From positions 62,001 through 126,000 of IMG/VR virus record IMGVR_UViG_3300028844_006119: a stretch of 64,000 bases of DNA; one strand, written 5' to 3'. Shown piece by piece: positions 9,646 through 62,364 of the stretch; position 1 is the stretch's first letter, and every line of letters starts with the position of its first letter. The position numbers and the translations under genes are program-made. Source of the DNA: a virus. Under the pieces are notes generated by a model. The model made no database searches, was not told where the DNA came from, and saw only the letters and a program-made list of their open reading frames with translations.

Positions 9646-9649
9646 CCGC

Positions 9650-9656
9650 TTATGAC
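9650..9656 (-). promoter_or_regulatory. GTCATAA element upstream of polA
   Basis: On the minus strand this reads GTCATAA, the element also found before several other minus-strand units in the window. It lies 75 bases before the polA ATG and just ahead of the tandem hairpins, so it may give polA a secondary promoter inside the operon. Assignment rests only on recurrence. Confidence 0.3.
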
Positions 9657-9664
9657 AGCTTTTC

Positions 9665-14879: not shown

Positions 14880-14889
14880 ACGGGGCCTC

Positions 14890-32961: not shown

Positions 32962-34933
32962 GGTCTTTGGGGCCACCCACGACTCCGACAGAGCGAACAA
33001 TGCGGCCATCCCCTACTCTGGTAGGCGGCGGGAATATGTTCTCTACCTCAATGCGAAGTCTAAGGAATCCCCCACCAAGCTGGTTACGGCGCTCCTAACT
33101 GGGGCAGGTCTCGGAGGACTGGCGGGAGGACTTGCCGGCCTTGGTGGGGGCGCGAAAGGTGCCCTAGTTGGTATCCTTGCTGGGGCCCTTGGTGGCTCCC
33201 TCTTCGGCGCCCTGGCTAAGGCCATCGATGATGGGAACATTCAAGAGGCTAAGCGCATCCTCCGTAAGGGCCACATCGACCAGGGGCTTGGGGAAGCCAT
33301 CATGCGAAACCAGCGAGCCAAGGAACAGGTGGCCCGGAGCAGACACTCCGAGACCCAACGCCGTCTCTCTGGAATCGAGAGAGGTATGAGTCGAGCCAGC
33401 AGCTACCCACACCGTAGTCGTAGGGTCACTGTGAAGGTCGGATCTCTTTGTTCCAAGATCGCAGGTACCTTGAACGAGTCCGACTTCGAGCGCTTCAATG
33501 AGGTGTTTTCCGACGCCAATACTCGACGAATGATTGAGAAGAACGCCTCCGTCATGGAGTGCCTCACCCTCCTGACTGACTCGGAGATTCACAGCACCGA
33601 CAAGATGGCTTCGGCGGCGGCCTCGGCATTCACGATGGGCTACGACGTGGTCCAGGTGAGACCTTCCGGCTACGGCTACACAGTCAAGGTGTCCGCTGCT
33701 CCGCAGGGCGTGGCCCCGCAAGAAACCCAGATGACTCAGCAGCAGGCTCAGCAGGCTCTTCCTCCTGAGATGCTTCAGGCTGCAGACCAGCAGGGCGCTG
33801 GCACGGTCACCAACGTGCAGGCAGACCCCGATCCGCTCGCGGAGAAGATGGCGCCGGCTACCGGGTTCGGCCTCTACAAGGTCACCGATGCTACTTCAGG
33901 CAAGCAGGTCGTTGGCTATGTCATTCCCGGACTGTTTGATCCGGTCTCGGGACAGCCCTCGCAGGTGAGCCTGTTCACCAACGGCTCCGCATACTGCGTG
34001 CAGCCGGTCATCAGCGGCTCCCTGTTGGGCGTGAACTTCAATCTTCCCATCCCGGAGAGCCCGGAAGTTCGCGGTTTGGGCGTGTTCGTCAAGAACAACG
34101 AGAAGGCCATCATCGCGACCATGCCGTACAACATCATCACTAAGGTGTCGGTTGAAGGTAAGGGCTACTTCGCCGCGCAGGACATGCAGGGCAACGACAT
34201 CCGCATCATCCCTTCTGAGGGCATTGCAAAGCCGGTTGCGACCTCTGCCACCGAGATTGTGATTCCCGCAGACTACAAGTTCATGCCTCTCGAGAACCCC
34301 ATCCAGCTTGCTGGCGGGGAAGAGCTGATGAAGTCCGCTCAGGCCAACGCGTTCCATACGATGATGGAGCTCCGGGCCTGGAGTGGAGGATGTCGCCTCG
34401 ATGGTCCCGTCTTCGAGAAGGTGGGATCGGGTGAGCACGACTGGGCCGACGGTGTCTTCTGGATGGCCGCTGCCGGTGTCCCCCAGAACGTAGGCTCTGC
34501 ACTTCTGGAGAAGGCAGCTTCCACAGGAGAGCCTCTCCGTCTGTTTGGTCTTGCGCCGCTTTCTACTCGAGAGGAGTACGTGGTCGAGGCAGAGAAGGAA
34601 GCCATGGCGGAAATGGCAGACATCGAGATTCCCCAGAGAGTCAACCTCCTTAAGGAGATCGCAGCGGTGACCTTCTCCAAGGAAGCATCGGCACTTGTGG
34701 ACACTACGTCTGTGGATGCCGTGCTTGCCCTCAACTTCCTCAACCCCGAGAATGTTGAGACCTTTGTAGAGCACCTGCCGCAGCTTGAGCACGCTTCCGA
34801 GAAGCTTGCCAATATCGTTCTGGCGTCTCAGCTGGGGCTTCAGTCCATCTCTAAGACCGCAGCCGTCCGTGCGATGTTTGCACTTGAAGATGTCATCTCA
34901 GGACTCAAGAGCCTCAAGACGTACTCGGTGTAA
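32945..34933 (+). CDS. Large putative virion protein (662 aa)
   Basis: ATG at 32945 has AGGAAG upstream. A Gly/Ala-rich hydrophobic stretch (LLTGAGLGGLAGGLAGLGGGAKGALVG) lies near residues 50-90, with basic helices around it. A Gln-rich linker (QMTQQQAQQALPPE) precedes a beta-rich domain of about 200 residues. The protein holds several copies of the K-x-A-S type motif (DKMASAAA, IEKNASVM, LEKAASTG, FSKEASAL, SKTAAV), many in the C-terminal helical part. It may be ejected with DNA or be part of the baseplate. No family recognised. Confidence 0.6.
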   Translation: MNKNAKVFGATHDSDRANNAAIPYSGRRREYVLYLNAKSKESPTKLVTALLTGAGLGGLAGGLAGLGGGAKGALVGILAGALGGSLFGALAKAIDDGNIQEAKRILRKGHIDQGLGEAIMRNQRAKEQVARSRHSETQRRLSGIERGMSRASSYPHRSRRVTVKVGSLCSKIAGTLNESDFERFNEVFSDANTRRMIEKNASVMECLTLLTDSEIHSTDKMASAAASAFTMGYDVVQVRPSGYGYTVKVSAAPQGVAPQETQMTQQQAQQALPPEMLQAADQQGAGTVTNVQADPDPLAEKMAPATGFGLYKVTDATSGKQVVGYVIPGLFDPVSGQPSQVSLFTNGSAYCVQPVISGSLLGVNFNLPIPESPEVRGLGVFVKNNEKAIIATMPYNIITKVSVEGKGYFAAQDMQGNDIRIIPSEGIAKPVATSATEIVIPADYKFMPLENPIQLAGGEELMKSAQANAFHTMMELRAWSGGCRLDGPVFEKVGSGEHDWADGVFWMAAAGVPQNVGSALLEKAASTGEPLRLFGLAPLSTREEYVVEAEKEAMAEMADIEIPQRVNLLKEIAAVTFSKEASALVDTTSVDAVLALNFLNPENVETFVEHLPQLEHASEKLANIVLASQLGLQSISKTAAVRAMFALEDVISGLKSLKTYSV

Positions 34934-40786: not shown

Positions 40787-40793
40787 TTATGCC
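40787..40793 (-). promoter_or_regulatory. GGCATAA element at the end of the HTH gene
   Basis: On the minus strand GGCATAA overlaps the stop of the upstream HTH gene and lies 37 bases before the coiled-coil gene. Because its last bases are a stop codon, this instance is weaker evidence than the purely intergenic ones. Confidence 0.22.
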
Positions 40794-41494
40794 GTGTTTT
40801 CTCCCCTTTTTAAGATCTTACGGAATAGGGCATCTGAGGTCGTAGAGGTCCCTACGTGCTGCCCCTCCAACTCCGGGGCGACGGCCCCCGCAAGCTCTCC
40901 GTAGATAAACGCGCTGATCCGCAACTTTCTTCGGGAGGATGCCAATATTTTGTGGAGCCCCTGCAGCTCCAGGGAAGCCGCATACTCTGGCCGAGTAACG
41001 ACAAACCCCATCATCATGGTGCAGAGCCGCAAGAATGTTCTCCAGGGGTGGATATCGGAGGTCTGCCCTGCCATCACTACGAAGTCATCCTCGGAGAGCC
41101 TGTCGAAGATCTCTACCCACGGAGCGATCTCCGTCGTCTCCCAGGCTCCTCTCTTCGTGTGGGCCACCGCAAACGTATACAGCTCTGAAGAGTAGGAGGG
41201 GCTCAGCCCCAGTGCCGCATCCTTCGCGTCTAAGATTCTAAGGACGACCTCCATGTGCGACTCCAGCCGGCGCACCTTAGAGCGCAGGCGAATCAGCTCC
41301 TGCCTGGAGACGACAGGGGACGCGGAGTCCATGTCTTCTTTCAGGTCCTGGACCTCCTCCGGGCGAAGGTATACGCTCCGGCCCTTCTTCTCCTTGGACA
41401 GCAAGCCTTTTTTGATATAGTTTCTGACGGTCCTGTCGGTTACTGAGAGGAACCTAGCTGCGTCCTGTAGCGTCATCATGTTATCGTGACTCAT
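40787..41494 (-). CDS. HTH regulator, MerR/excisionase-like N-terminus (235 aa)
   Basis: The first 55 residues (MTLQDAARFLSVTDRTVRNYIKKGLLSKEKKGRSVYLRPEEV) form a clear winged helix-turn-helix of the MerR/excisionase class. A coiled stretch follows (ELIRLRSKVRRLESHMEVVLRIL), then a C-terminal domain of unknown fold. It is divergent from the scaffold-like gene at 41513 with nearly touching starts, so it could control that late operon or itself. GGAG lies upstream. This is the only clear transcription-factor candidate in the window besides the RNA polymerase. Confidence 0.7.
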   Translation of the reverse strand: MSHDNMMTLQDAARFLSVTDRTVRNYIKKGLLSKEKKGRSVYLRPEEVQDLKEDMDSASPVVSRQELIRLRSKVRRLESHMEVVLRILDAKDAALGLSPSYSSELYTFAVAHTKRGAWETTEIAPWVEIFDRLSEDDFVVMAGQTSDIHPWRTFLRLCTMMMGFVVTRPEYAASLELQGLHKILASSRRKLRISAFIYGELAGAVAPELEGQHVGTSTTSDALFRKILKRGENTA

Positions 41495-41512: not shown

Positions 41513-42394
41513 ATGTTTGGTTTAAGCATCACTAAAGACGATCTGAGAGAGCTGGCCTCCTGTGCCGCTACAGATTTTCTTGAGACTAAGACCCCGCTCA
41601 CCGAAGCGGTAGTCAAGGTCGCAAGTGGCTGCGAGAGGGATCTTACCTCAGAACACGTTCGCCGCATCTGTGAGATGACCTATCACGACGCGTATGAGAG
41701 ACTGCACAAGTCTGCCTCGGCTGCCGACAGGTACATTACTTTCGACCCGCCGGACGCGCCTACAGCAATTGGCATGCTTCGGGCTAAGAAGGTAGAATCC
41801 ATGCACAAGGCGGCCAGCTTTGCAGGAGCCGGAACCATGATCGATAAGACCGCAAGCGCCCCACACCGGACCAAGTTTCAGGCTGCGAATGCCTTTGACG
41901 CTCTGATGAAGACCGCCTCTGTCGAGGAAGAGGGTGTCGACCATCGATACTTGCACCGTATCCGTCAGGATCTCAAGGAGGCAGTGGCCTCGGTAAGCTC
42001 TGAGCACGCTGGCGTTGTGGTTGCGGCCGACCTGGAGATGGGCTCCCTGATCAAGGAGGCGTACTCCTCCTACCGAGATGGGTACTCCGTGGAGGAGATC
42101 CTGCACGCGTGCTTCTCCGGGGCGGACCTGTCCGAGATCCCTAGATCTGCCTCCGTCAAGGTGGCCTCCATCCTCTCTGCTGAGCTGGCAAGAAAGGCCG
42201 TGAAGACCGCAGGTCTCGGAATCAACAAGACTGCCTCTCTCGGGGAAGTCGATCCTACACACCCGCTGCCCTCCCGCTTTACGAAGGCGGCGCAGCTAGA
42301 GACTGAGCGGGCACATCTGGAGCTTACTCTGTCGGACCTCAAGCGGGACCGGGACGGTTTCCGTAAAAAGGTCGAGTCTCTGTATGACCGATAG
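41513..42394 (+). CDS. Helical protein with eight K-x-A-(S/G) repeats, scaffold candidate (293 aa)
   Basis: The protein is helical and punctuated by VKVAS, HKSAS, HKAAS, DKTAS, MKTAS, VKVAS, VKTAG and NKTAS at intervals of about 20-60 residues. It opens the head operon that leads to the capsid gene, so it may be a scaffold or core protein cut by the maturation protease at these sites (inference). The start is uncertain: ATG at 41513 has only GGGCGG upstream, while a GTG at 41486 overlaps the start of the divergent HTH gene. A coiled coil ends the protein. Confidence 0.6.
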   Translation: MFGLSITKDDLRELASCAATDFLETKTPLTEAVVKVASGCERDLTSEHVRRICEMTYHDAYERLHKSASAADRYITFDPPDAPTAIGMLRAKKVESMHKAASFAGAGTMIDKTASAPHRTKFQAANAFDALMKTASVEEEGVDHRYLHRIRQDLKEAVASVSSEHAGVVVAADLEMGSLIKEAYSSYRDGYSVEEILHACFSGADLSEIPRSASVKVASILSAELARKAVKTAGLGINKTASLGEVDPTHPLPSRFTKAAQLETERAHLELTLSDLKRDRDGFRKKVESLYDR

Positions 42395-42677
42395 CCTGCT
42401 AACTCCCCAAGTCATGACGGCGTTCTCCGACGAGATCGAGAAGCTCGCCTTCTCCGTAATTGGCCGGGCGGCTAAGGGAGCTGCGGACATGGGGTTTAAG
42501 GGCGTCGGTTCCGTGGCTAAGGCAGCGGTAAACAACCCCAAAGCGGCTCTCATGGGAACCGCAGCACTCGGCGCAACCGGCCTCGGGGGAGCCCACGTAC
42601 TTAAGAAGTCCAGGCAGGGCTTTGAGGCCCAGAGTATGGGCTCTCTTCCTGGCCGGCATGGTACTTTAACCACATAG
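42384..42677 (+). CDS. Small virion protein with FSDE motif (97 aa)
   Basis: The N-terminus has TAFSDEIEKLAFSV, the recurring virion motif. A basic helix and a Gly/Ala hydrophobic segment (AALMGTAALGATGLGGAHVL) follow. It overlaps the upstream gene by 11 bases. The layout, motif then hydrophobic segment then basic end, is the same as in the larger protein before the portal. Function unknown. Confidence 0.6.
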   Translation: MTDSLLTPQVMTAFSDEIEKLAFSVIGRAAKGAADMGFKGVGSVAKAAVNNPKAALMGTAALGATGLGGAHVLKKSRQGFEAQSMGSLPGRHGTLTT

Positions 42678-42687
42678 GAGTCTAATC

Positions 42688-43209
42688 ATGGAAATTCCCG
42701 CAGAAGCATACGAGCTTTACGCTCGAGGCGAGATCACTGACCGGGAGATGCACGAGCTTGAGAAGTTCGCAGAGGCTCTCGAGAAGACCGCCTTCGATTA
42801 TGGGAAGGCGGGGCTGATGATGGGCGGAATGGCGCTGGCTGCTCCGGCGCTGGCGTATGCCGCAAACCAGGTCCCTAAGACCTTGCAGGGTATGGCGAAC
42901 TCCATGCGCTTCGAGTCCGGCCTAAACAAGGCTCTCGAGATCAACCCGCAGCTCGGTAGTGCTAAGGACCCGAACTTGCGCATGGCGTACAAGACGCTCC
43001 AGACGACCAACCCGGACTACGCCAAGGATCCTCTGATCGCCGGTACCATTCTGGACATGGTCATGTCGAACCGCATGGACCCTGATGATCCCGGCAGCGC
43101 ACCTCGTTTCGACCCGACACTTCTCAATGAGATTCAGAAGAGCGCTCCCAGATCGCCTGACATGACCCAAACCATGGGAAGCGCGGCAATGACCGCCGCC
43201 AAGGGATAG
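42688..43209 (+). CDS. Small virion protein (173 aa)
   Basis: AGGAG precedes the ATG. The N-terminal 30 residues hold two motif-like segments (HELEKFAEALEKTAF), followed by a hydrophobic stretch (LMMGGMALAAPALAY) and a helical, Met/Pro-containing C-terminus. It lies between the scaffold candidate and the protease candidate. Function unknown. Confidence 0.6.
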   Translation: MEIPAEAYELYARGEITDREMHELEKFAEALEKTAFDYGKAGLMMGGMALAAPALAYAANQVPKTLQGMANSMRFESGLNKALEINPQLGSAKDPNLRMAYKTLQTTNPDYAKDPLIAGTILDMVMSNRMDPDDPGSAPRFDPTLLNEIQKSAPRSPDMTQTMGSAAMTAAKG

Positions 43210-43218
43210 AGGTCTGAT

Positions 43219-45192
43219 TTGGACAAGTACGCGCTATACCCCGGAAAGGCTGCTGACGGCCGGCCCAGAGTTCACCTGGTTGAGCCGGGTACTGGGTATG
43301 GTATGGCCAGTACTGACGGAGTCACCAAGACCGCGTCGGGAGAGCACCTTCCGGAAGTCATGGAGCTTATTGAGTCGATCGAGGCGCAGCCCGGAAGGCT
43401 GTACTTGGTCAACTCAGCTCTGGGTGCTGGGGAGAACGTTGGGTTCAATCTTCGAGGTGACTGGTTCACTGAGAAGGGCCTGAATCACACTCCTCCCGGA
43501 TTCGAGCAGATCCCGGTGTGGGATATCGAAGCGCGGAGAAAAGCCGCAAACATCACAGAGGCTGTGCCTCGGTGGGGGTCTTTGGCGTGGGGCTACCCTA
43601 CGTTCTACAACGCGCATAGATTCCGGCACCACGTCAACAAGGACCCAAACAAAGCCTACGGATTCATTCTGGGGGCTTTTTGGGATGACCGTATGAAGCG
43701 GGTCATCCTGGTGTCTGAGCTGATTAAGACCATGTGCGCCAAGATGGGGGCTCTTGATCTGTACAACCGGATCCAGGGTGGGGACTTTCCAGACTCCAGC
43801 ATGGGCAGCAAGGTCCCGTACGACCGATGCGCTATTTGTAACCACCATGCCCGCACACCAATGCAGTATTGTGAGCATGTCCGTAAGGGAGCTTCTCCTC
43901 CCTATGGAATGAAGTCCATGCTCCCGGACGGGCGTATCTGCGGTGTTTACAACGACTACCCGAGATTCTTCGACGATTCATTTGTGTTTGTCGGGGCCGA
44001 GCGATCTGCGAAGGTGATGTCGGATGTCACGAATCAGGTCTCGGGGAGAAACGCGTACTCCCAGAAGATCTACCCGTTCTCGCGCCCCATCCAGAAGATT
44101 GCTTCTGCAGCCGGGGTAGCGGATGTAACTCCTATCTCTGATGCTCCGTCTCCGCAGACGCAGAAGCCGAACATCCCGGACTTTGTTTTAGAGGAAAAAC
44201 TTACTCGGGCTGTCCAGCTGATTCCCGTAAGCACCTCTGCTGAGCGAGAGACGCTTAGATTCTTCATGCAAGAGCGCCTAGCGGAGGAAAGAGTCCGTGC
44301 GGGGACAATGTCCTCCACTGAGATGCAGATGTGGAAGGACCTCTCGCGGAACGTATTACTGAGGCAGTACGGGGTCTCCCCAGAGCAGATGGTCCACCTA
44401 AAGGTACTGTTCAACACCCGAGCAAATCAGGTACTTGGGATTACTAAGGTTGCGGAGATGCCCAAGTGGGCAGAGATTCTGAAGAGAATCCCCGCCCCCT
44501 CTCCGGAGCACATGAGCATCGTGCGTAGAGAGGAGAAGTGCCTCCCCGAGATTCCTAGAGAAATCCTGGACGAAATCGCAGATGCTCCTGGGCCAAATCT
44601 CCGTGCTGCAGCACGGATGGGCATCGTGGCCCGTCCCAATGAGTTCCAGTACATCATGCTGCGGCAAAGAGACCCGGACTTAGCGAGTAGACTCCACACG
44701 AATAGAGTGGTATTTCGCCCTACTTCCCTTCGTAGGGAGACATCAGCGTTCAATACGGGCTATGTCCCTCGCGACACTATGCACTCCATCATCCATAAGT
44801 TGGCACCTCTTATAGCCTCACGCTCCTTTGCGCCTTCGGCTATTAGAGCGCGGATCATTAAGATCACGCCCATGCCTAAGATCGCAGAGTTCTCAGAGAC
44901 CGAGAACTTGGATGAGGTCTCAGAGCTATACAATCAGTATCGCCTGGGGCTTATGCTATCTCCTACAGACCTCACGGCAGTGACCGTGCCCTCTGTTTTC
45001 TCCGATAGAATCGATGACGATGTGAAAATTGCCGGTGATTCTGTTAGTCTTTCTGCCCTAATGACGAGCCTTGCCTATTGGCCCGGTTTACAGTTAGGAT
45101 TAAACTCGGCTGAGGGGTCCTCCTCCGAAGACGCCACCCACTCTCAACCCCATATTGGAGAAATCCATCATGTCACTCCTTACGGAGCTTGA
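43219..45192 (+). CDS. Candidate head maturation protease or capsid-associated protein (657 aa)
   Basis: The start is TTG at 43219 with GAGG eight bases upstream. The N-terminal 270 residues form a distinct domain: FYNAHRFRHHVNKDP, GFILGAFWDDRMKRVIL and GGDFPDSSMGSKVPYD, then a Cys/His cluster (CAICNHHARTPMQYCEH). The order of a His in the first block and a Ser in the SMG block, upstream of the capsid gene, would fit a serine prohead protease. Which residues are catalytic cannot be proved here. The other 380 residues are helical with KTASG and QKIASA motifs. A structural role remains possible. Confidence 0.4.
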   Translation: MDKYALYPGKAADGRPRVHLVEPGTGYGMASTDGVTKTASGEHLPEVMELIESIEAQPGRLYLVNSALGAGENVGFNLRGDWFTEKGLNHTPPGFEQIPVWDIEARRKAANITEAVPRWGSLAWGYPTFYNAHRFRHHVNKDPNKAYGFILGAFWDDRMKRVILVSELIKTMCAKMGALDLYNRIQGGDFPDSSMGSKVPYDRCAICNHHARTPMQYCEHVRKGASPPYGMKSMLPDGRICGVYNDYPRFFDDSFVFVGAERSAKVMSDVTNQVSGRNAYSQKIYPFSRPIQKIASAAGVADVTPISDAPSPQTQKPNIPDFVLEEKLTRAVQLIPVSTSAERETLRFFMQERLAEERVRAGTMSSTEMQMWKDLSRNVLLRQYGVSPEQMVHLKVLFNTRANQVLGITKVAEMPKWAEILKRIPAPSPEHMSIVRREEKCLPEIPREILDEIADAPGPNLRAAARMGIVARPNEFQYIMLRQRDPDLASRLHTNRVVFRPTSLRRETSAFNTGYVPRDTMHSIIHKLAPLIASRSFAPSAIRARIIKITPMPKIAEFSETENLDEVSELYNQYRLGLMLSPTDLTAVTVPSVFSDRIDDDVKIAGDSVSLSALMTSLAYWPGLQLGLNSAEGSSSEDATHSQPHIGEIHHVTPYGA

Positions 45193-46123
45193 ATCACGGG
45201 GCGTCACAGCTGAGGATCTTGAGAAAGCGGCATCTGTCCGTTTATTTGAGAAGGCTGCTGCCGCCGAAGACGTGGATCTCGGCTCACTTGATGAAAATCA
45301 GGTAGAAGACCTCTACGTCACATTCCTTTCCAACCAGTCCAATGATGACTACACAAAAGAGGCTTCCGCCATGAACGACGAAATCGTTGACCTTTTCGAA
45401 AAGACCGCTGCAGCCGAGGGCATTGACCTCGACGACATGGCGGACCACGAGCTTGCTGAGCTCTACAACCACTACGTTGAGAACGTTCTGCCCGAGCAGG
45501 TCGAAGAGTACGAGAAGGGTGCTTCGTACGAGGTCGACGAGGCCACCGAGAAGCTCGCTGAGGCCGAGATTCTCGGTCGCCACATGGCGCGTGCCTACAT
45601 GGATGAGTTCGACAAGGAGGCTGCGAGCGCAGCAGCGGCCGGTGCCAGACTGGACGCTGCTGCGGCCGAGGCCGGACGATGGGGCCAGTCGGGCAAGGTC
45701 GAGGCGCAGAACGCCGCGAACCGTGCCAAGGAATCGATTGGACGAGGCTACGAGTCTGCCAAGGCGAAGGGCAAGGCTGGCTATGAAGCTGGTGTCCGTG
45801 GTGCTAAGGCCACTGGTGCCGCAGTTGCTTCCGGTGCTCGGTCCTACGGCAATGCTATGACTGGTAAGCAGTTGCGAGAGGCTGTCTCCACCATGCGTAA
45901 GCAGAAGGGTGGATATCGATCTTCCGCAATGGGCCGCGGTAAGGCCCTTCGTGGCGGTGCCAAGACGCTAGCCGCATGGGGCGCAACCGGTGCAGCTGGC
46001 TACGGCGCCAAGAAGGGCTACGACAGGATGACCAAGAAGTCCTCGATTGACGAGATCATTGAGGACCGCGCCAACGAGCTTCTCGGAGAGTTCCTCTTCG
46101 AGAGCGGTGTCGAGCTGGACTGA
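45170..46123 (+). CDS. Virion/scaffold-like protein with internal duplication (317 aa)
   Basis: ATG at 45170 has GGAG upstream and overlaps the previous gene by 23 bases. The first half is very acidic and holds two related units of about 43 residues, starting LFEKAAAAEDVDLGSLDE and LFEKTAAAEGIDLDDMAD and each ending with a (K/E)(E/G)AS segment. A third partial unit follows. The second half is Ala/Gly/Lys/Arg-rich with a Gly/Ala hydrophobic segment. An acidic-then-basic architecture just before the capsid gene suits an internal scaffold. Function inferred from context. Confidence 0.6.
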   Translation: MSLLTELESRGVTAEDLEKAASVRLFEKAAAAEDVDLGSLDENQVEDLYVTFLSNQSNDDYTKEASAMNDEIVDLFEKTAAAEGIDLDDMADHELAELYNHYVENVLPEQVEEYEKGASYEVDEATEKLAEAEILGRHMARAYMDEFDKEAASAAAAGARLDAAAAEAGRWGQSGKVEAQNAANRAKESIGRGYESAKAKGKAGYEAGVRGAKATGAAVASGARSYGNAMTGKQLREAVSTMRKQKGGYRSSAMGRGKALRGGAKTLAAWGATGAAGYGAKKGYDRMTKKSSIDEIIEDRANELLGEFLFESGVELD

Positions 46124-46125
46124 GA

Positions 46126-46413
46126 GTGGAAATGCCTGCCAACACAGACATCATGAGATTCTTCTCAGACGAGATCTGTAAGTTGGCAGGCATGCCCGCA
46201 CTCAAGGTTCCGGGCATGGGCAGTAAGGGACAACTATCTTCATTGATGGCCCGACCTGCCCATGCCCAGGCCGGTAACTTCGCAAAAGCACAAAAAGCAC
46301 TGAAAACACCCACCACAGGAAGCGCCCCGAAAGGGATTAATCATGCTTCGTTAAAGGCGGTGGGCTCCACGGGATCTGTATCTTTACCGCCACCTCCCGT
46401 GAAAACCGTCTAA
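46126..46413 (+). CDS. Small virion protein with FFSDE motif (95 aa)
   Basis: GTG at 46126 or ATG at 46132 can start it, with GAGAGTGGAA upstream. The N-terminus is MRFFSDEICKLAGMPAL, almost the same as in the protein before the portal (FFFSDEIQKCAGMPAP). The remainder is Lys/Ala/Pro/Gly-rich and probably unstructured. The motif occupies the first 25 residues, like a detachable tag. Confidence 0.6.
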   Translation: MEMPANTDIMRFFSDEICKLAGMPALKVPGMGSKGQLSSLMARPAHAQAGNFAKAQKALKTPTTGSAPKGINHASLKAVGSTGSVSLPPPPVKTV

Positions 46414-46437
46414 ACTTCCCACTTTTAGGGTGACCCA

Positions 46438-47178
46438 ATGAGCAACTACCGAAGCATGATTGATGACGCACTCCAGAGTGCAAGAGCCCGTATCGATGGC
46501 GGCAGCGCAGATCTGATGAAGACCGCTTCTGCCCCCGAGAACAGCATGGTCAAGGAGGCGTCCGAACTCGCAGACGCCCTTGAGTATGTTGCCCACGCCT
46601 CTACGAACACTGGCTCCGCCGCTGACGCTGTTCGTGGCGAAATGGTTCGTTCCTTCTTTAAGAGCGCGGCAGGCGCTCCTGCCCAGAGCAGCACATCTGT
46701 TCAGGGCACCCAGGCACACGCCCCCACTGGAAAGAAGATCCAGGCAAAGGGCCAGTCTGTCGGAGGCTCGGCTCCTCAGTCGGAGACCACTCCCGCCCCC
46801 GCAGATGGCCAGAAGCCGCTGCTCGAGTCCTTCAAGCAGGCAGAGGGTCAGTCTCTCTACGACATCCTGATGGCCAGTAAGACCGCAGGCAAGGGTGGCC
46901 CCTCCGAGAGCACGGCTACTGAGTCTGCTCAGGGCATTCCTTCTGGTAACGAGAACTCCAACCGTCAGGCGATTCTCGAGAGCAACGAGGCTCCGGTCAA
47001 CGCGACCCGCCGTCAGGCTAAGGCTCCCGTCCGTAAGCGCCTCGCGGAGGCGTTTGCCCACACGAACAGCACCACTGGCGACTCCACGCTGAATGCAATG
47101 TTCCCTCAGGCCGCAGGTAAGGGATCCCACAAGATCGCCTCCGTGAAAGATCGGCTGAGCGCAATGGCTGGTGAGTAA
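46438..47178 (+). CDS. Low-complexity head-operon protein (246 aa)
   Basis: Ser/Ala/Gln/Thr-rich protein with LMKTASAPE, VKEASELAD and HKIASVKD motifs at its ends, and a likely disordered middle. It lies three genes before the capsid-proximal proteins. Its composition suits a cleaved scaffold or internal protein. No family recognised. Confidence 0.6.
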   Translation: MSNYRSMIDDALQSARARIDGGSADLMKTASAPENSMVKEASELADALEYVAHASTNTGSAADAVRGEMVRSFFKSAAGAPAQSSTSVQGTQAHAPTGKKIQAKGQSVGGSAPQSETTPAPADGQKPLLESFKQAEGQSLYDILMASKTAGKGGPSESTATESAQGIPSGNENSNRQAILESNEAPVNATRRQAKAPVRKRLAEAFAHTNSTTGDSTLNAMFPQAAGKGSHKIASVKDRLSAMAGE

Positions 47179-47179
47179 T

Positions 47180-47485
47180 ATGTCCTCTATTAGAGACAGG
47201 CTTGAGAAGATCGCTGCTGCCAAGGACGATAAGGGTGACCTCGCCCTTTATGTCTCTAAGAAGCTCTCGGAGAAAAGAGCATCCGTTGCGGAGTACTCTG
47301 TGCTCTTCGATAAGGTTGCCTCCGGTGACCTAGGAGAGCACACCCGTCAGGCCCTACTCGGCATCTGCGACACGATCCCAGAACCCACTACTCTTTCGGA
47401 AAAGACAGCATCTGTGTATGATGTTATGGACTTTTCTGAGAATGACGCAAGAAGAGCTAGACTAGATCAGCTCCTAAAGCGTTAA
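47180..47485 (+). CDS. Small head-operon protein (101 aa)
   Basis: ATG at 47180 lies just past the previous stop, with GGTGAG upstream, and GTG at 47171 is an in-frame alternative. Helical and charged, with RLEKIAAAKDD, FDKVASGD and SEKTASVYD motifs. It ends with a basic helix (ARRARLDQLLKR). Function unknown; scaffold-like. Confidence 0.6.
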   Translation: MSSIRDRLEKIAAAKDDKGDLALYVSKKLSEKRASVAEYSVLFDKVASGDLGEHTRQALLGICDTIPEPTTLSEKTASVYDVMDFSENDARRARLDQLLKR

Positions 47486-47509
47486 ACTTCCTTCCGCCGG
47501 AGAATTAAC

Positions 47510-47875
47510 ATGATGAAGATCGGGAATGCACAGCTTGCTGCTGTCTCCGCAAAGGGGGCGGCGACTATCCGTACTCTGGTGGAGAAAGTCGCTAGCTTGG
47601 AGACGGAGAACGTCTCCCTCCGAACAAAACTAGCTTCTATTGCGCGCGACTCTCAGATCTCTGAGCTTGCACGCGAGATGGAAGACAAGAGCCTTAATGT
47701 TGACATGACTTTCGAAGAAAAGGTTGCACACCTGCGGGGTCAGGCAAACCTAGAGAACGTCACTGAAGCAGTAAAGATGGCGAGCGCGGGCCATGTCCGA
47801 CTTGCCGATGTTTCCGACCATCCCGGGACGGGAGCGATCGACCCACTCACCTCTTTCTGCCTTTCCGGCGAATAA
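47510..47875 (+). CDS. Coiled-coil head-operon protein (121 aa)
   Basis: GGAG precedes the ATG. A leucine-heptad-like coil (TIRTLVEKVASLETENVSLRTKL) dominates the first half, with VEKVASLE and VKMASAGH motifs. The C-terminus turns Gly/Pro-rich (SDHPGTGAIDPLTSFCLSG). Two genes before the capsid gene, it is a plausible small scaffold or capsid-assembly partner. Confidence 0.58.
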   Translation: MMKIGNAQLAAVSAKGAATIRTLVEKVASLETENVSLRTKLASIARDSQISELAREMEDKSLNVDMTFEEKVAHLRGQANLENVTEAVKMASAGHVRLADVSDHPGTGAIDPLTSFCLSGE

Positions 47876-47893
47876 TCAACTAGGAGATACGTC

Positions 47894-48508
47894 ATGGCTG
47901 GCACTTTCGTCACGCTCGTTAATCCCGGGTATTCCTCTCTGTTTACCCGAGACCTTTCCACTGCTACGACGGCTAACGTCGAGGGCAGTACTTCCCTGAA
48001 TCTGTTTGATCCCGATTCGACCCATCCTCTTCAGGAGGGTGAGTGGCTCGGCATCAACAGTAGCTACAAGTTCTCTCGTCCTTCGGGCGGAGACGTCACG
48101 GGATCTTCCAACTCGACCGGAGTCCTGGAGATCGTCGAGGACGCGCAGAACACGGCCGCTACCGGCCTGTGCTACATGTACTTCCAGGAGCGCGGTCGTT
48201 ACGACGCCCAAGTCACCAAGAAGGCTCACTGCATCGTCGGACCGGGGAACTTCGAGTTCCGCACCAAGATGATCGTCTGCGCAGCCGGGGACGAAGGCGA
48301 AAAGGTCTTCGTGTATGTCTGCCAGGACTCCAGCAACCGTCTAGTCTCGGCTTTGGTCTCCGCTAGCGCGGCCATCGCTGCGACTACGGCTGTCGCTCCC
48401 GCCGTGGGTACCGCCGCCACCACTGACGGCTCTTGGTACGCTGGTGTTATTTCCCGTGTTCACGGGACCAACGACGCTACCGTGCTGTTCCAGCCCGGCT
48501 TCCTCTAA
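47894..48508 (+). CDS. Candidate capsid decoration protein (204 aa)
   Basis: A beta-rich, Ser/Thr/Ala-rich protein (FVTLVNPGYSSLF, CIVGPGNFEFRTKMIVCA, WYAGVISRVHGTNDATVLF) encoded immediately before the major capsid gene, where many phages keep head decoration or cement proteins. AGGAG precedes the ATG. No motif-level match was made, so the role is inferred from position and composition. Confidence 0.45.
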   Translation: MAGTFVTLVNPGYSSLFTRDLSTATTANVEGSTSLNLFDPDSTHPLQEGEWLGINSSYKFSRPSGGDVTGSSNSTGVLEIVEDAQNTAATGLCYMYFQERGRYDAQVTKKAHCIVGPGNFEFRTKMIVCAAGDEGEKVFVYVCQDSSNRLVSALVSASAAIAATTAVAPAVGTAATTDGSWYAGVISRVHGTNDATVLFQPGFL

Positions 48509-48531
48509 ACCCCCAGTCCTAGGAGAACATC

Positions 48532-49668
48532 ATGGATTATTCCGCTGAAATGGTGAATTCGGGCTTCATTGAGCGCCTCGAGACTGAGGGTTCCACGAAG
48601 ACCGCCGCCGCCTCTCTCAACTACATCAAGGATCGCCTGCGCGAGTCCAGCTTTGCCGACATGATCGTTCCGAACGAGCGTGTTGTGCGTGGCGACTTGC
48701 AGCGCAGCACCCAGCACGACACCCTCGTGAAGATCGTCGACATCGAGCCGGGTTCCCGCGCGATGGCCGTCAACTTCCGTGGTCAGCCTACCGCTGAGTA
48801 CGTGTCTGGTAAGCGCTACGCAATCGGCTTCTTCACCATCTCGAGCCTCAAGTTCGAAATCGTGGAGCAGGAGCTGATGGCATACGAGATGCCCGTCACC
48901 CGCATCATCGAGGAGAACAGCCTCAAGGACATGGTCGAGGTCAAGGATCGCGAGTTCCTGAACCACGTCGAGTCCTGCATCGATGCAATGCAGAGCGAGG
49001 GTGGTATCACCACCTTCAACACCTCGACTTGGACAGCTGGTTCCCAGTTCTCGAAGATCAAGGGCTCTCTGGCTCTGCAGCAGACCACCGACAACTTCAA
49101 CGTCCAGGCAATCCAGCGGACTGACATTGTGGAGCTCAAGAAGCTTCTCAAGCGTCAGGTGCTTGATAGCTCCGGTAACGTGGTTCGTCAGGGTCGTCTT
49201 CGTCCCGCGCTGATGCTCATGACTGAGTCCGACGCTGACGACTTCGATCAGTGGACTCACGAGGACTACGGTGATCGTCTCCAGAGCGAAACCGCTCTCG
49301 ACGGCTACACCTACAACAAGGTCCTCGGTCTGCGCATCGTCCGTACCATCAAGAACGACATCCTGCGTGAGGGCAACGTTTACGTGTTCACCGCACCGGA
49401 GTTCTTCGGCCGGAACTACACGCTGAACGATGTCAAGTTCTACATCGATAAGATTGCGAACCGCATCTTCTGGCAGGCATGGATGGACGTGGGCATGGGC
49501 TTCGGCAACATCGCCTCGGTCGTCAAGCTTGAGCTCTACTCCGGTAGTGTCAGTGGCACGCCGGATTCCGGCTTTGCTGCAGCGATGCCGACTGACGAAG
49601 AGAACCTGGGTGGCCAGAACAACAAGGCCGCTGATGGTCTGACCTACCCGAGCCTCAACATCTTCTAG
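48532..49668 (+). CDS. Major capsid protein, HK97-like (378 aa)
   Basis: The length, the strong AGGAG site, the following terminator and regular codon use (mostly C-ending) fit the highly expressed capsid gene. The N-terminus has about 25 residues ending in the STKTAAAS motif, which could be a removable propeptide. The body shows E-loop-like and long-helix segments (IEQELMAYEMPVTRIIEE-like region), a P-domain-like middle and a C-terminal FYIDKIANRIFWQAWMDVGM block near the end. Subunits should form the icosahedral shell. Confidence 0.82.
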   Translation: MDYSAEMVNSGFIERLETEGSTKTAAASLNYIKDRLRESSFADMIVPNERVVRGDLQRSTQHDTLVKIVDIEPGSRAMAVNFRGQPTAEYVSGKRYAIGFFTISSLKFEIVEQELMAYEMPVTRIIEENSLKDMVEVKDREFLNHVESCIDAMQSEGGITTFNTSTWTAGSQFSKIKGSLALQQTTDNFNVQAIQRTDIVELKKLLKRQVLDSSGNVVRQGRLRPALMLMTESDADDFDQWTHEDYGDRLQSETALDGYTYNKVLGLRIVRTIKNDILREGNVYVFTAPEFFGRNYTLNDVKFYIDKIANRIFWQAWMDVGMGFGNIASVVKLELYSGSVSGTPDSGFAAAMPTDEENLGGQNNKAADGLTYPSLNIF

Positions 49669-52158: not shown

Positions 52159-53033
52159 TCAAGTTTTGCAATGAAAGAGTGCTCTCTTTTGAGCTGGATT
52201 ACCTGGACGTCATGTGGGAAATCGAGCCCACAACTGAGGACGTTCAGGAGTACCAGTTCTTTGTAGAGCGCTCTGAGGCGGAGGCAGGGCCTTGGCTTCA
52301 GATTGCAGGACCCCTCGTCGATGTCTACCGATTCCGGGACAACGCTACTCCCCAGATTACGACCAATGCCCGGACTCTCTTCTACCGAGTAAAGGCACTT
52401 CATTCCCCTACCGGAAGGATTGTCTACTCTCCTCTTTTCGACCAAGAGGGGCCTATTTCTTTACACGCTAAAGAAATGGTGAGACTGGAGAGAGTGCTGT
52501 TTGAGGAATTCGTCGCAATCCACTGTTGGATTTTCCCTCGCCGCACGTTTGGGCAGAGATGCCCGAACTGCTATGACGACGTCCTGGACAAAGTCATTGA
52601 TGACTCCTGCCCTACCTGCTGGAGTACCGGATTCAGTGGCGGTTACCACCACCCCATCTCTTTTTGGGCCCAGATTGATGCCCCAGAGCAAACGGAGCAG
52701 GTGTCTCTTGAGGACCACCGAAGGGTGCTGTATTACCAGATTCGGTGTGGCCCAAGCCCCGCGCTGAAGCCTATGGACCTAATCATCGATCACCAAAACA
52801 GAAGGTACCGGGTGGTGACGGTCTCCGGCACTGCCCGACTGGGGGTAACTGTTCGGCAGGAGGCACGTCTGGTCCAGATCCAGAGGGGCTCCATCGAGGA
52901 CAAGATCCCGCTGAAGGTAGATACTGCTACAGTAAAGAGATTCCCAGAAAAGGTCTTTACCAACCCCCACTCGTTAGAGGCCGCAGAGCCTGACATCTCT
53001 AGCATCTTCGGTGCCTACGGATACACCCCATGA
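52155..53033 (+). CDS. Putative neck/tail-completion protein with Cys pairs (292 aa)
   Basis: GTG start in GTGA. The N-terminal 100 residues look like a fibronectin-III-type beta sandwich (YLDVMWEIEP, YQFFVERSEAEAGPWLQI, TLFYRVKAL). A zinc site follows (CPNCYDDVLDKVIDDSCPTC), then a beta-rich domain. Beta sandwich plus zinc clip is plausible for a neck protein. The role is inferred. Confidence 0.52.
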   Translation: MIKFCNERVLSFELDYLDVMWEIEPTTEDVQEYQFFVERSEAEAGPWLQIAGPLVDVYRFRDNATPQITTNARTLFYRVKALHSPTGRIVYSPLFDQEGPISLHAKEMVRLERVLFEEFVAIHCWIFPRRTFGQRCPNCYDDVLDKVIDDSCPTCWSTGFSGGYHHPISFWAQIDAPEQTEQVSLEDHRRVLYYQIRCGPSPALKPMDLIIDHQNRRYRVVTVSGTARLGVTVRQEARLVQIQRGSIEDKIPLKVDTATVKRFPEKVFTNPHSLEAAEPDISSIFGAYGYTP

Positions 53034-53386
53034 CGAATCGCAAGACGGACAACGGAAGGCCCTTCACTCGAGGGATGCTTCTTCCGGCTGCAGCAACCGG
53101 CGCTGGGATGTTTGCCGGAGGCATGATGGGTGCCGCCGGAGCACGGGCCATTCTCCGCTCCCCCGGTATGGCAGAAAAGCTCCGCAGAATGAGCCCGGCA
53201 CAAAGAAAGGTCTTCGGCGAGCGAGCCCTTCTGGTGACTAATACCGCAGGCAACATGGCTGGGGCTGGGGCCGGGTACCTCGCCCACTCGCTCTTTCAGG
53301 ACGAGATGGACAAGAGAAAGAAGAGCAGGGAGAAGACTGCCTCCGCGTTTCTCTACTGCTTGGAGTACCTAAACAGCTATGAGTAG
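53030..53386 (+). CDS. Small virion protein with hydrophobic core and KTAS motif (118 aa)
   Basis: ATGA overlap. Basic N-terminus, then a Gly/Ala/Met hydrophobic stretch (GMLLPAAATGAGMFAGGMMGAAGA), a basic middle, and REKTASAFLYCLEYL at the end. The motif is here at the C-terminus rather than the N-terminus. Function unknown. Confidence 0.57.
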   Translation: MTNRKTDNGRPFTRGMLLPAAATGAGMFAGGMMGAAGARAILRSPGMAEKLRRMSPAQRKVFGERALLVTNTAGNMAGAGAGYLAHSLFQDEMDKRKKSREKTASAFLYCLEYLNSYE

Positions 53387-54221: not shown

Positions 54222-57200
54222 ATGGCTTCCGAGACCCGCCCTGGCGTTATCGTTGTGCAGGAGCTTTCAGAGACGCCCGCGGCTGTCTCGGCCCCTACAC
54301 TTGTTCCTGTTGTTGTCGGCCCTTGCTATCAGATCGTCGAGGCTCTTGAGAGCGACGGCTCTCTGAATGCAGACGCACAGTATGCCGACGAGCAGTACAA
54401 CCAGGTGGCACTTGCCATCCCGCAGGCAGATCTGCCTGACCCCCGCAGCAACATCACCGAAGTCAATATCGATGAGTCGCAGGTGGGCCTGAGTCTGTAC
54501 TTCGGTGGCCTGCTGGCCACGGTTGCGCGGGGCTCCAACAGCAGCACTGGGTCTTCCTTCCTTAAGGGAGTCAACCTCTGCGCGAAGCCCGCAATCTTCA
54601 CGGACGAAGTCAGCGGCACCTACGATTTCACCAGCTACGGCGATGCCGGTGCGCTGCTGACTCTGGCCTTTGATCTTCCCAGCTCCTCCGTCACCTCCAA
54701 CGACGTGACGATTACGTTCACTGGTTCGATGACGGCAACCGAGGTTGCGGACGCGATCAATGGCGCTGTGGGCGCAGATGTCGCCGAAGTCGTCGACAGC
54801 ACCAACAGCTACGGGATCTCCAGCTTTACTAGCGCCGCTTACGAGCTGGTTCTGATCTACACAGCAGGGTTCGGCGCGACCTCGAACATCACTGTTCGGG
54901 CCAACGGCTCGGCTCTCGCAGTCCTCTTCACCGGACTGTCCACCTCCGTGGACCACCGCATCGAAGGTGCTGGCTTCCGCGGAGAGGATGATGATGACGG
55001 AGACCTCACTACGCCTTGGATCGAGTGGCACCGCGGGGCGTACAAGTTTGGTACCCCCGGTACCGCGCTGACAGGCAACGCCTCCGCAGATGACGCGTTC
55101 AACACTTCCGGCGGCCCCGGCCCCTCTGCTGCAGACTTTGTGGGGCTCATTGACCTGAATGGTGCGTACACCGGCTCCAAGGCCACGGATGTCACCTTTA
55201 CCGGAAGTGCTCCGGTCGTTCCTCTTTCGGCAGCCACGACCACCCTCGAAGGGGATGAGTTCTGGGGCGATGGCTCTCAGGTCGGAGACGGCGTAATCAC
55301 TGTCGTAGAGCAGCGACGGTTTAAGGTCGGCGTCCTGGACAACGCACTGTCTACCTTTGACGGTAACGGTGACCCCACTTCGGCGGTCTACACTACCCTC
55401 GAGGTCAACACCCCCTCCCACGGAACCCCGTTTTCTCCGAAGTACTCGTACTTCGTTGCGAACAACTTGGTCTACGGGGAGGTCACTCCCGAGGGAACTG
55501 CAGCCGCAGTCACGGGCTCGATCACTGGCCTCGCTCCGCAGTCGGCCACGGTTTATACCTCGACGGTTTCTTCTTCCTGGCTCACGGCTATGCCGGCCAC
55601 CGACGTACTCCTGTCTGGGGGCACTCTGACCATCCAGATCACGGAGGACGGAGTTCAGGGTGACGAAGTTACCTTTAACTTTGCCGAAGGTGCCGCGCAC
55701 GCTGGTGCGTATGCGACCGTCGCAGAGATTGCGGCCGATCTGACCTCCGGGTTTGACGGTGTCACAGTTACTGCGTTTGATTCTGATGGCGACGGAGAGG
55801 ATGACTCCCTGGTCTTCCAGACCACTAAGACTGGCTCCGACCAGAGCATCAGCGTGAAGACGACGGGCACCAACAGCATCGCGTCTAGCTTGGGCATCAC
55901 CTCTACCCTTACCGGTACCGGTAAGGACTACGAGTTCGCAGAGCAGGCGATCATCACGGGCGATTACATCACCGTGCCGCTGCCCTCCGACCAGAGCGCT
56001 GCCATTGAGTTCACCGTCGTTGACTCCTTTGGTACGCATACCTTCGACGCAGGGGCTGCCGCTACCACAGCACTGGCGGACCTGGATGCTCTCGGACAGG
56101 CAATCTCGGGAGACACCTCGCACGCCAGTGGCGTCTACAGCGTCAACCTGAACGCGACCTCTGGCGGCTTTGAAGTCGCGACTCTGTACTTCATCGACGA
56201 AGACGGAGATGTCATCACCAACCCTGTCGGCGCCCTCAATGGTCGCATGGTCATCAAGACCACGCAGGGCGGTAGCAGCGTCGACGTGTCCGTGGATTCT
56301 ACGGACGACACGGATCTGATCCTTCTCGGCTTCACGGACACCGGCTTCGCTGCGGAGCTCAGCGGTGACGTCGTGGATGGAAGTAGCATCCTTGTAAACA
56401 CCGCTGGCGATACTCTCACGGTGTACGACGGCACTACGACTTGGACGTTCACCGCTTCCGGGGACATTACTACGGCGGCTGCGCTAGTCGCTGCGCTGAA
56501 CGATGATGCTGAGGCACAGTGGGGCGGAGATGCTGCTGCGGTAACTGCGGCGGCTCACTTCTTTGTGGTTCCCCAGTCTGTTGTGGGAACGAACCAGATC
56601 GGGGTCCGGCTAATCAACGGCGGAACTCTAACTCTAGGCGGCACCCAGACTCAGAGCCTTACCGGCGGAGCCGACGACTCGGTTGCAGCGGCCAGCAACA
56701 CCGATACCGGAGTGGATGAGCTCTCGGGCACGCGCCTGGCGTTCACCCTCGATGAGAACCCTTACGTCTACGAGATCGACTTCACGTCGAACTCGCTCGA
56801 CGACGGTGTCACTCTCATCAACACCACTATCGGCGGCTCTTCCGACATCGCCTCTGAGAGCGGCGGTGCCTTGGCACTGACCTCCAGCTTTGCTGGTGCG
56901 GCTTCTCGGGTCACGATTGACGACACAACGACTGCTGAGGTCACCAACGACAACGCCGAGGACGCAGGTACGGTCCTGGGAGTTACCAGTGGTGATTCGA
57001 CAGGCTCTGGCCGCCCCAACCCTGATTTCTACCAGGACGGTTCCGGCACGGTGTACGTCGGCGCGAACATCCTGCGAAACCGAAGCACTGGCGTTCCGTA
57101 CAGCCTGGCTTCCGCCCTTGCAGACATCTACTTTGACTATGTCGGCCTCCGGCTGGATGTCTCGCCTGCTGCTGCCGACCCGGCGCTGCTGAGCTTCAAC

Positions 57201-58535
57201 GATGTGACCACGATGATTGCGGCCATTGGCCCGGTCAGCACGGACAACCCGTTGGCTCTTGCCTGCTTCCTGCAGCTCTCGAACGCTCCCAGTCAGTCGG
57301 TCTCGGCTCTGGGCCTCAGCGAGACTTCCGCCGCCGCACCCCTGGGTTCGGTGACGGCACATGCAGAGGCTCTGGACTTCCTGGAGGCTAAGGAGGTCTA
57401 CGCAATCGCTCCTCTGACGGATGATGGATTCGTTCATCAGCTGTACGCGACGCACGTAGAGTCCATGTCCGCTCCTTCCGAGCGGGGTGAGCGCATCGCC
57501 ATCGTGTGGGCTCCGCAGCCTACCCGTGACACGGATGACTCCATCCAGTCCGGCACAGACGCGGAGACCAACGGCACCGACAGCTCAGTGACTCTGGGAA
57601 GCAACCCAGTCAGTGCCATCATCGGTGCGGGCGCCTCGGATGTTTCCGCTCTCACCGTGGCGGACGGCATCTACATGGAGGTGGTCATCGTCAGCCTCGG
57701 GTCTACCGAGGTCCGAAACTACAGCCTCTCGTCTCAGACCGGCGTGATCAGTGCCTTCCGCACTTCTTTCGCCTCGGGCGAGAATGACGATGGCTTCTAC
57801 TCGACCACCGCATTGGATGGAGATGCTGGGTACACCAGCATGACCTACGCTATTCGTAAGCGTGGGGAACTCCTGTTGGTGACGGGAACGACCATCCCCG
57901 ACTATGGGGCGATTGCAACCGCCGCCGCCGCGACTGGAGCTTCTTACGCCAGCCGTCGTGTCTTCCATGTCTACTGTGACTCGGTCGATACTTCGATCGA
58001 CGGTGTTGTGACCAACGTGCCCGGCTACTACACCTGCGCTGCGATCACCGGCATGATTGCTGAGCAGCCTCCGCAGCAGCCCTTTACTCGCCTGTCCATG
58101 ACCGGTTTCTCCAAGGTGTACGGCTCTGACGACACCTTCAGCGAGAACCAGATGGACACTATCGCTGATGGGGGTCGGTACATCCTCATCAACCAGGGTG
58201 GTCGGATCGCATCCCGCCACCAGAGGTCTACCGCGAGTACCAGTATCGAGGCTCGTGAGCTCTCGATTACTAAGGCGATTGACTACCTGGCCAAGGGTCT
58301 TCGGGCCACGAACCGGGTGTACATCGGTCGTTACGTCATCAACCCCGGATTTATCGACCAGCTGGTCATGTCGAACGAGGGTTTCCTCGCTCGCACCGTC
58401 CAGTCGGGCGTGGTGAACTCCGCCGCACTTAAGAGCGTGCTCCAGGATGAGAGTGCGCCCGATACAGTCCTCATTGAGGTCGAGGTTGCCCCGGCCTACC
58501 CCTGCAACAAGATTCGAATCACCATCGTTTCGTAA
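54222..58535 (+). CDS. Giant tail sheath protein (1437 aa)
   Basis: The N-terminus (RPGVIVVQELSETP) and the C-terminal 400 residues (ALDFLEAKEVYAIAPL, RYILINQGGRIASRHQRST, ITKAIDYLAKGLRATNRVYIGRYVINP) match contractile sheath proteins, which polymerise around the tube and drive contraction. Usual sheaths are 350-700 residues. Here roughly 900 residues of Asp/Ser/Thr/Gly-rich beta sequence are inserted, with loops such as DSDGDGEDDS near residue 518 that resemble calcium-binding loops. The insertion probably decorates the sheath surface. Strong ribosome site and the following tube gene support the call. Confidence 0.82.
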   Translation: MASETRPGVIVVQELSETPAAVSAPTLVPVVVGPCYQIVEALESDGSLNADAQYADEQYNQVALAIPQADLPDPRSNITEVNIDESQVGLSLYFGGLLATVARGSNSSTGSSFLKGVNLCAKPAIFTDEVSGTYDFTSYGDAGALLTLAFDLPSSSVTSNDVTITFTGSMTATEVADAINGAVGADVAEVVDSTNSYGISSFTSAAYELVLIYTAGFGATSNITVRANGSALAVLFTGLSTSVDHRIEGAGFRGEDDDDGDLTTPWIEWHRGAYKFGTPGTALTGNASADDAFNTSGGPGPSAADFVGLIDLNGAYTGSKATDVTFTGSAPVVPLSAATTTLEGDEFWGDGSQVGDGVITVVEQRRFKVGVLDNALSTFDGNGDPTSAVYTTLEVNTPSHGTPFSPKYSYFVANNLVYGEVTPEGTAAAVTGSITGLAPQSATVYTSTVSSSWLTAMPATDVLLSGGTLTIQITEDGVQGDEVTFNFAEGAAHAGAYATVAEIAADLTSGFDGVTVTAFDSDGDGEDDSLVFQTTKTGSDQSISVKTTGTNSIASSLGITSTLTGTGKDYEFAEQAIITGDYITVPLPSDQSAAIEFTVVDSFGTHTFDAGAAATTALADLDALGQAISGDTSHASGVYSVNLNATSGGFEVATLYFIDEDGDVITNPVGALNGRMVIKTTQGGSSVDVSVDSTDDTDLILLGFTDTGFAAELSGDVVDGSSILVNTAGDTLTVYDGTTTWTFTASGDITTAAALVAALNDDAEAQWGGDAAAVTAAAHFFVVPQSVVGTNQIGVRLINGGTLTLGGTQTQSLTGGADDSVAAASNTDTGVDELSGTRLAFTLDENPYVYEIDFTSNSLDDGVTLINTTIGGSSDIASESGGALALTSSFAGAASRVTIDDTTTAEVTNDNAEDAGTVLGVTSGDSTGSGRPNPDFYQDGSGTVYVGANILRNRSTGVPYSLASALADIYFDYVGLRLDVSPAAADPALLSFNDVTTMIAAIGPVSTDNPLALACFLQLSNAPSQSVSALGLSETSAAAPLGSVTAHAEALDFLEAKEVYAIAPLTDDGFVHQLYATHVESMSAPSERGERIAIVWAPQPTRDTDDSIQSGTDAETNGTDSSVTLGSNPVSAIIGAGASDVSALTVADGIYMEVVIVSLGSTEVRNYSLSSQTGVISAFRTSFASGENDDGFYSTTALDGDAGYTSMTYAIRKRGELLLVTGTTIPDYGAIATAAAATGASYASRRVFHVYCDSVDTSIDGVVTNVPGYYTCAAITGMIAEQPPQQPFTRLSMTGFSKVYGSDDTFSENQMDTIADGGRYILINQGGRIASRHQRSTASTSIEARELSITKAIDYLAKGLRATNRVYIGRYVINPGFIDQLVMSNEGFLARTVQSGVVNSAALKSVLQDESAPDTVLIEVEVAPAYPCNKIRITIVS

Positions 58536-58547
58536 TAGGAGAACAAA

Positions 58548-58994: not shown

Positions 58995-59003
58995 GATAAG
59001 TAA

Positions 59004-59612: not shown

Positions 59613-59635
59613 TCTCCATCCTTTAGGAGCCTAAA

Positions 59636-60334: not shown

Positions 60335-60344
60335 AGGAAGAGAC

Positions 60345-60587: not shown

Positions 60588-60594
60588 GTAAGCG

Positions 60595-62318: not shown

Positions 62319-62331
62319 AAAAGTTCCACCT

Positions 62332-62359
62332 AAAAGACAGTGGGGTTTCCCCCACTGTC
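62332..62359 (-). terminator. Intrinsic terminator after the VWA gene
   Basis: On the minus strand GACAGTGGGG pairs with CCCCACTGTC around a four-base loop and is followed by TTTTAG. It sits six bases after the VWA gene stop and before the 90-residue gene, acting as terminator or attenuator. Confidence 0.8.
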
Positions 62360-62364
62360 AGACC

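Follow-up and report, generated by a model that had tools for sequence, protein, structure and literature searches.

A recurrent K-x-A motif in the head proteins of a widespread phage group and the putative specificity of its prohead protease

Known prohead proteases and the locus under study

The prohead proteases that have been studied recognize two anchor residues around a free one and cut behind the second, as in [LI]-x-E for phage T4 and A-x-E|S for SPN3US, and the Pro protease of P1 cuts at E|S (PMC9024508). Here we describe a motif, K-x-A, most often followed by Ser, that recurs in the head proteins of an uncultured virus and that we consider the probable recognition and cleavage motif of the prohead protease of its phage group, encoded at 43219-45192. 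The stretch analyzed (the window; 64,000 nucleotides) covers bases 62,001-126,000 of the 142,186-base record IMGVR_UViG_3300028844_006119; the list of open reading frames was made for the window and gene calling was carried out over the entire record. The late region includes the genes for the terminase (37984), the portal (19686; related to the portal of phage G), the protease (43219) and the capsid protein (48532), and a minus-strand block (1979-16679) encodes DNA polymerase A, a DnaB helicase, a UvsX-like recombinase and a DEAD helicase. The gene order around the protease and capsid genes is retained in relatives, including the phages D69 and Arash, and Pfam recognized no head-module protein above the curated cut-offs. 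Between the terminase gene and the first core protein gene lies a minus-strand gene for a helix-turn-helix protein (MerR/excisionase-like; 40787-41494) that faces the head module; proteins resembling its product occur in many relatives.

The gp21 system of T4 resembles this locus in that the protease gene adjoins the genes of the scaffold and the capsid protein, the scaffold has many sites, the capsid protein has an N-terminal site, the N-terminal propeptides are short and two anchors enclose a free residue. The spacing is the same, but the anchors are Leu/Ile and Glu in T4 and Lys and Ala here. Moreover, gp21 has 212 aa, whereas the protease studied here has 657 aa, with a Cys-rich segment after an invariant Ser. 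The release and maturation sites of herpesvirus assemblin have Ala at P1 and Ser at P1', like the Ala|Ser proposed here, although Lys at P3 is not required by assemblin. The proteases of human cytomegalovirus, herpes simplex virus 1 and pseudorabies virus appeared low in the list of fold matches, at Z 2.4-2.5, which is not above background. The proteases SPN3US gp245, phiKZ gp175 and P1 Pro (A-x-E|S, S-x-E and E|S, respectively) share with this system the P3-x-P1|P1' geometry and the preference for Ser at P1' (PMC10052503, PMC5694885; for P1 PMC9024508). All three cut after Glu, whereas here that place is taken by Ala, with Lys two residues before; Glu at P1 does not apply to the head module, where K-x-A is the dominant pattern. 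Finally, Bacillus phage G encodes a homologous protease (gp19) and a relative in capsid fold (gp27), but where the motif would be expected its capsid protein reads EEGRVALAQAM, thus no K-x-A, and its module is not enriched in the motif.

The spacing of the motif is therefore familiar from T4-type proteases, and the use of Lys and Ala instead of Glu would be new; in a search confined to open papers (subscription papers lay outside it), we found no description of a prohead protease that cuts at K-x-A. If correct, the assignment would provide, from sequence alone, the protease specificity of a widespread and almost unstudied phage group, comprising at least 50 distinct contigs as well as Salmonella phage Arash and the Vibrio phages D69, D148 and D181, and this specificity would not be of the Glu type. 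It would also allow predictions of where the mature capsid protein starts and of which unannotated proteins are taken up into the head.

Enrichment and conservation of K-x-A

The head module as defined here comprises 11 proteins (2,682 aa), beginning at 41513 and ending with the capsid protein, and expected counts were obtained from composition-preserving shuffles. The first-pass annotation had noticed a repeated K-(T/V/S/A)-A-S in proteins of the virion region, not evident in replication proteins, and had suggested an enrichment test between virion and non-virion genes; the sites it named could all be located, both in the module and outside. The strict pattern K[TVSA]AS occurs 13 times in the module, against 0.48 in the shuffles (shuffle maximum 3); the remaining 40,736 aa contain 11 copies. 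As had been claimed for replication genes, it is absent from the 12,018 aa of the minus-strand genes, which include these, and an equal frequency in the two sets was thus not found. With the second residue left free (K.AS), 22 occurrences were counted in the module compared to 1.57 after shuffling (Poisson P about 4e-18), while the controls SA.K (1; expected 1.5), A.K (16; expected 19.6), R.AS (1; expected 1.5), E.AS (2; expected 2.0) and K-x-G were not enriched. Counted per protein, the strict motif is present in 6 of the 11 module proteins (those starting at 41513, 43219, 45170, 46438, 47180 and 47510) and in none of 56 minus-strand proteins (Fisher P 5e-6). Broader forms were found in the 42384, 42688 and 46126 proteins and the capsid protein has K23-T-A-A, which leaves the protein at 47894-48508 as the sole motif-free one among the module proteins examined. 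The original observation holds and is stronger than first described, but the invariant core is K-x-A only: the middle residue varies, and Ser is the commonest residue behind it, though not the sole one.

In a blind scan, 1,600 two-residue patterns with spacings 1-4 were each scored against shuffles. KxA ranked first of the 1,600 in the module itself (56 versus 19.6 expected; z 9.4), in five progressively less similar relatives (L022, L025, L032, L039 and L040) and in the head modules of the cultured phages D69 (Vibrio) and Arash (Salmonella), although the capsid proteins of D69 and the window share only 25% identity. It also came first in the majority of some 60 additional loci. KxA was not among the top patterns of the virus's own minus-strand genes, nor of phage G. 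Scanned in the same way, the T4 proteins gp67, 68, 21, 22 and 23 gave LxE first and IxE fourth, which is the known specificity of gp21. The [LI]xE sites of T4 (39 versus 16.8 expected, with the reversed pattern at expectation) include 16 in the scaffold gp22 and one at residue 65 of gp23. The known motif of SPN3US was recovered in part: the top patterns of its propeptides include ES, AxxS and VA, in line with the VAxE|S logo from the literature. When its proteins were scanned at full length, AxE came out at rank 151, without enrichment, and the motif surfaced in the propeptide regions only; a missing enrichment would hence not have ruled out cleavage. The scan, which recovers the T4 motif, might be used on other phages with an uncharacterized protease specificity.

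A profile search with the protease yielded 79 viral loci and 3 loci in bacterial assemblies. Within the first 60 residues, K-x-A is present in all 46 distinct capsid N-termini; it lies at residues 20-29 in 45 of them, where it precedes a conserved [YFW]xxDxxRE segment, and at 26-28 in the remaining one. In the protease it precedes a conserved GxNxxGD block in 52 of 53 distinct N-termini, the exception being K-V-S. The chance of any K-x-A at those places was 0.22 for the capsid protein and 0.17 for the protease, as judged by shuffling. Across eight families, the residue between the motif Lys and Ala is free to vary. The extended pattern reads h-[ED]-K-x-A-[SA], in which position -2 (h) is hydrophobic and position -1 is often acidic. 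The module was also found on contigs in three bacterial assemblies (L137-L139; Deltaproteobacteria, an unnamed bacterium and Methylococcales), which may be a clue to the host or represent co-binned phage.

These data bear on the explanation that shared ancestry or helix composition accounts for the pattern, the proteins being paralogues or Ala/Lys-rich coiled coils in which K-x-A has no function. The head proteins are indeed Ala-rich and mostly helical, and the 45170 protein contains an internal repeat (LFEKxAAAEgIDL). Yet shuffles that preserve composition gave 1.6 sites versus the 22 found, the reversed pattern and R-x-A-S stayed flat, and the proteins differ in size and flanks. In addition, the motif residues outlast other Lys and Ala: retention in the eight families is 0.68 for motif Lys versus 0.42 for other Lys (P 5e-5), and 0.74 versus 0.44 for Ala (P 1.5e-7). 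We therefore regard a functionless motif as very improbable.

Protease, core proteins and capsid protein

The gene at 43219-45192 (plus strand, 657 aa) precedes the capsid gene within the head module, and on the basis of profile and sequence matches its product is a homologue of head maturation proteases. It matches the corresponding PHROG family phrog_18299 (E 9.6e-5) and, more distantly in tblastn, gp19 of phage G (E 2e-10) and a protein of Gordonia phage Pupper that is annotated as capsid maturation protease (E 2e-3); Pfam gave no family match for it, and a profile search of the PDB returned chance matches only. His137, His138 and Ser194, the latter within Ser194-Met-Gly, are invariant across 17 sequences and, by analogy with gp21, are likely the catalytic residues. 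A Cys-rich segment (CxxC...C) follows the invariant Ser. The AlphaFold model is weak (pLDDT 58); its top PDB match is T4 gp21 (5jbl), to which 113 residues align at rmsd 3.5 and Z 4.7, with the next entry at Z 3.4, and prohead proteases recur among the matches of this model in the viral library. The N-terminal site is K37-T-A-S (43327-43338), and more sites are found at residues 293, 410, 416, 554 and 603. Since proteolysis by this protein is putative, processing by a host protease or by another phage protease has to be considered, but the conservation of the motif at the protein's own N-terminus, the location of its gene inside the module and the recurrence of the pattern in phages of different hosts make such a substitute hardly credible. 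Long intein-like insertions, which begin with CFPAGxxV and end with VHN, are present in the protease genes of three relatives (L024:2660-5800, L025:3159-6299 and L040:4241-6928); they lie directly behind Ser-Met-Gly, a site typical for inteins.

Three plus-strand genes encode proteins of the core or scaffold type with many sites. The 293-aa protein at 41513-42394, which matches Gp220 of Arash, was correctly described as holding eight copies of the motif, seven of which are of the strict form: KVAS35, KSAS66, KAAS99, KTAS112, KTAS133, KVAS216, KTAG231 and KTAS239 (Lys codons at 41615, 41708, 41807, 41846, 41909, 42158, 42203 and 42227). Among its 18 homologues, site 35 is kept in 16, site 112 in 18 and site 239 in 15. 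The protein at 45170-46123 has six to seven K-x-A sites (19, 28, 63, 78, 116, 128 and 149), most of which are kept in 16-20 of 21 homologues, and that at 46438-47178 has sites at 28, 39, 75, 133, 148 and 232, kept in 14-17 of 17. The remaining module proteins, likewise on the plus strand, include one with N-terminal KFAE26 and KTAF33 (42688-43209), a small head protein with sites at 10, 45 and 75 (47180-47485; KTAS75 kept in 9 of 9 homologues, KRAS32 in 5 of 9) and a small coiled-coil-like head protein with sites at 26, 40, 71 and 89 (47510-47875). The motif-free protein at 47894-48508, directly before the capsid gene, is decoration-like by position only, its place being equivalent to that of phage G gp26 (annotated as capsid decoration).

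The major capsid protein (48532-49668, plus strand, 378 aa; phrog_2522) matches phage G gp27 (6WKK) in a PDB profile search with E 1e-5; its AlphaFold prediction failed (pLDDT 38). The motif expected close to residue 22 turned out to be K23-T-A|A (48598-48606), of which K23 and A25 are invariant, and it separates a 25-aa N-terminal arm from the conserved body.

A maturation cleavage or packaging signal, as the first-pass annotation had proposed, is thus supported by the enrichment, the fixed positions, the multi-site proteins, the protease gene, the T4 control and, in part, the SPN3US control. Cleavage at K-x-A(S) is the most economical explanation, because multi-site core proteins, N-terminal sites in capsid protein and protease, and tagged small proteins (see below) resemble the situation in T4. 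The protease would enter the prohead together with the core proteins and cut itself near residue 39, after which the core proteins would be cleaved at their many sites, the capsid protein would be trimmed after about residue 25 and the small head proteins would lose N-terminal propeptides of 15-35 residues. The most likely register has Lys at P3, a free P2, Ala at P1 and Ser, or Ala/Glu/Gly, at P1'.

Several observations weigh against cleavage. The protease model is weak, as mentioned, and in the capsid protein K-x-A mostly precedes Glu, Ala or Gln, and not Ser. LxE is mildly enriched in the virus's own proteins too, the minus-strand genes included, so that the T4 signal may in part be unspecific and the T4 control is supportive but imperfect. 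Phage G, Myrna and Pupper, which encode distant homologues of the protease, are not enriched in K-x-A, which makes the motif a property of the clade. Most homologues were detected in purified Arash particles, and several multi-site proteins are listed as covered nearly completely (Gp223 100%, Gp220 95.8%), as expected from intact protein (PMC10585845). The coverage column is inconsistent, however, with 100% and 2 unique peptides in several rows, including DNA ligase (PMC10585845 Table 2), and many replication enzymes are among the listed virion proteins (PMC10585845). For the Arash capsid protein, 41 of 307 residues are uncovered; these may comprise the first 25-29 residues together with others or correspond exactly to one tryptic peptide of 41 residues (237-277). 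Given this arithmetic ambiguity and the inconsistent coverage, the Arash proteomics decides nothing on cleavage.

The N-terminal tag and motif proteins outside the module

Five plus-strand genes encode proteins with a common N-terminus, F-[FS]-D-E-h-x-K-x-A. Two are small proteins of the module, at 42384-42677 (AFSDEIEKLA|F; K20, codon 42441) and 46126-46413 (RFFSDEICKLA|G; K19). The others lie far from it: one just upstream of the portal gene (18724-19689; FFFSDEIQKCA|G) and two small neighbors, at 60595-60882 (HFFSDEVEKTA|S; K15) and 60882-61127 (HFFSDEVEKLA|A; K15). From this tag the proteins, including the distant 18724, 60595 and 60882, are predicted to be head proteins. A DNA pattern search for the tag retrieved 10 viral stretches only, the pattern probably being too strict. 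The two neighbors are identical over their first 15 residues (MDLEVLHFFSDEVEK) and diverge beyond, as if one N-terminal tag had been used again for different cargo.

The capsid targeting sequences of T4 and P1 are likewise short common N-terminal segments on small or internal head proteins, and that of T4 ends in the protease site, as the tag of these putative head proteins would do here. They are unrelated to the tag in sequence, and targeting remains putative here. The tagged propeptides may nevertheless double as a capsid-targeting signal, as in T4, and the tag would be a candidate for loading proteins into capsids.

It could then be argued that the motif is a docking or targeting code without cleavage, in which K-x-A-S and the preceding amphipathic segment form a short helix that binds the scaffold, the inner face of the capsid or the protease and in this way brings proteins into the prohead. 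The segment in front of a site is often an acidic amphipathic helix, with a hydrophobic residue at -2 and Glu or Asp at -1, several small proteins share the tagged N-terminus, and the T4 and P1 precedents exist. But T4 targeting sequences end in a protease site, hence the two roles are not exclusive; sites spread along the core proteins and a fixed site at the protease N-terminus suit cleavage better, and protease subsite patterns typically consist of two anchors with a free residue in between. Docking without cutting thus seems unlikely to us. A broader form, to which we give no better chance, holds that K-x-A-S, as a short docking helix that recurs within core proteins and also stands N-terminally, is a general assembly address of a broad uncultured phage group and would sort dozens of proteins to the prohead through binding, instead of or before cutting; the virion RNA polymerase would possibly be sorted too.

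This polymerase is a fused beta-beta' protein of 2112 aa (22606-28944, plus strand), identified by Pfam and by its matches in D69 and Arash. A motif was indeed found near its end, at residue 2075, but reads KTAA and not KTAS. The distant homologues in Arash are present in virions, where beta is the most-detected protein (PMC10585845). The two subunits are encoded by one gene here and by two genes in D69 and Arash.

Motifs also occur in further plus-strand proteins outside the module, namely those at 16758-17936 (six K-x-A sites, including KVAS223), 32945-34933 (five, including KMAS220, KAAS523 and KEAS579), 53030-53386 (KTAS102) and 61127-62062 (KVAS47 and KTAS61). A protein of 2334 aa, encoded by bases 56670-63674 of the record (its end part at 37-1674 of the window), has three K-T-A-A/E sites and is a candidate giant virion protein.

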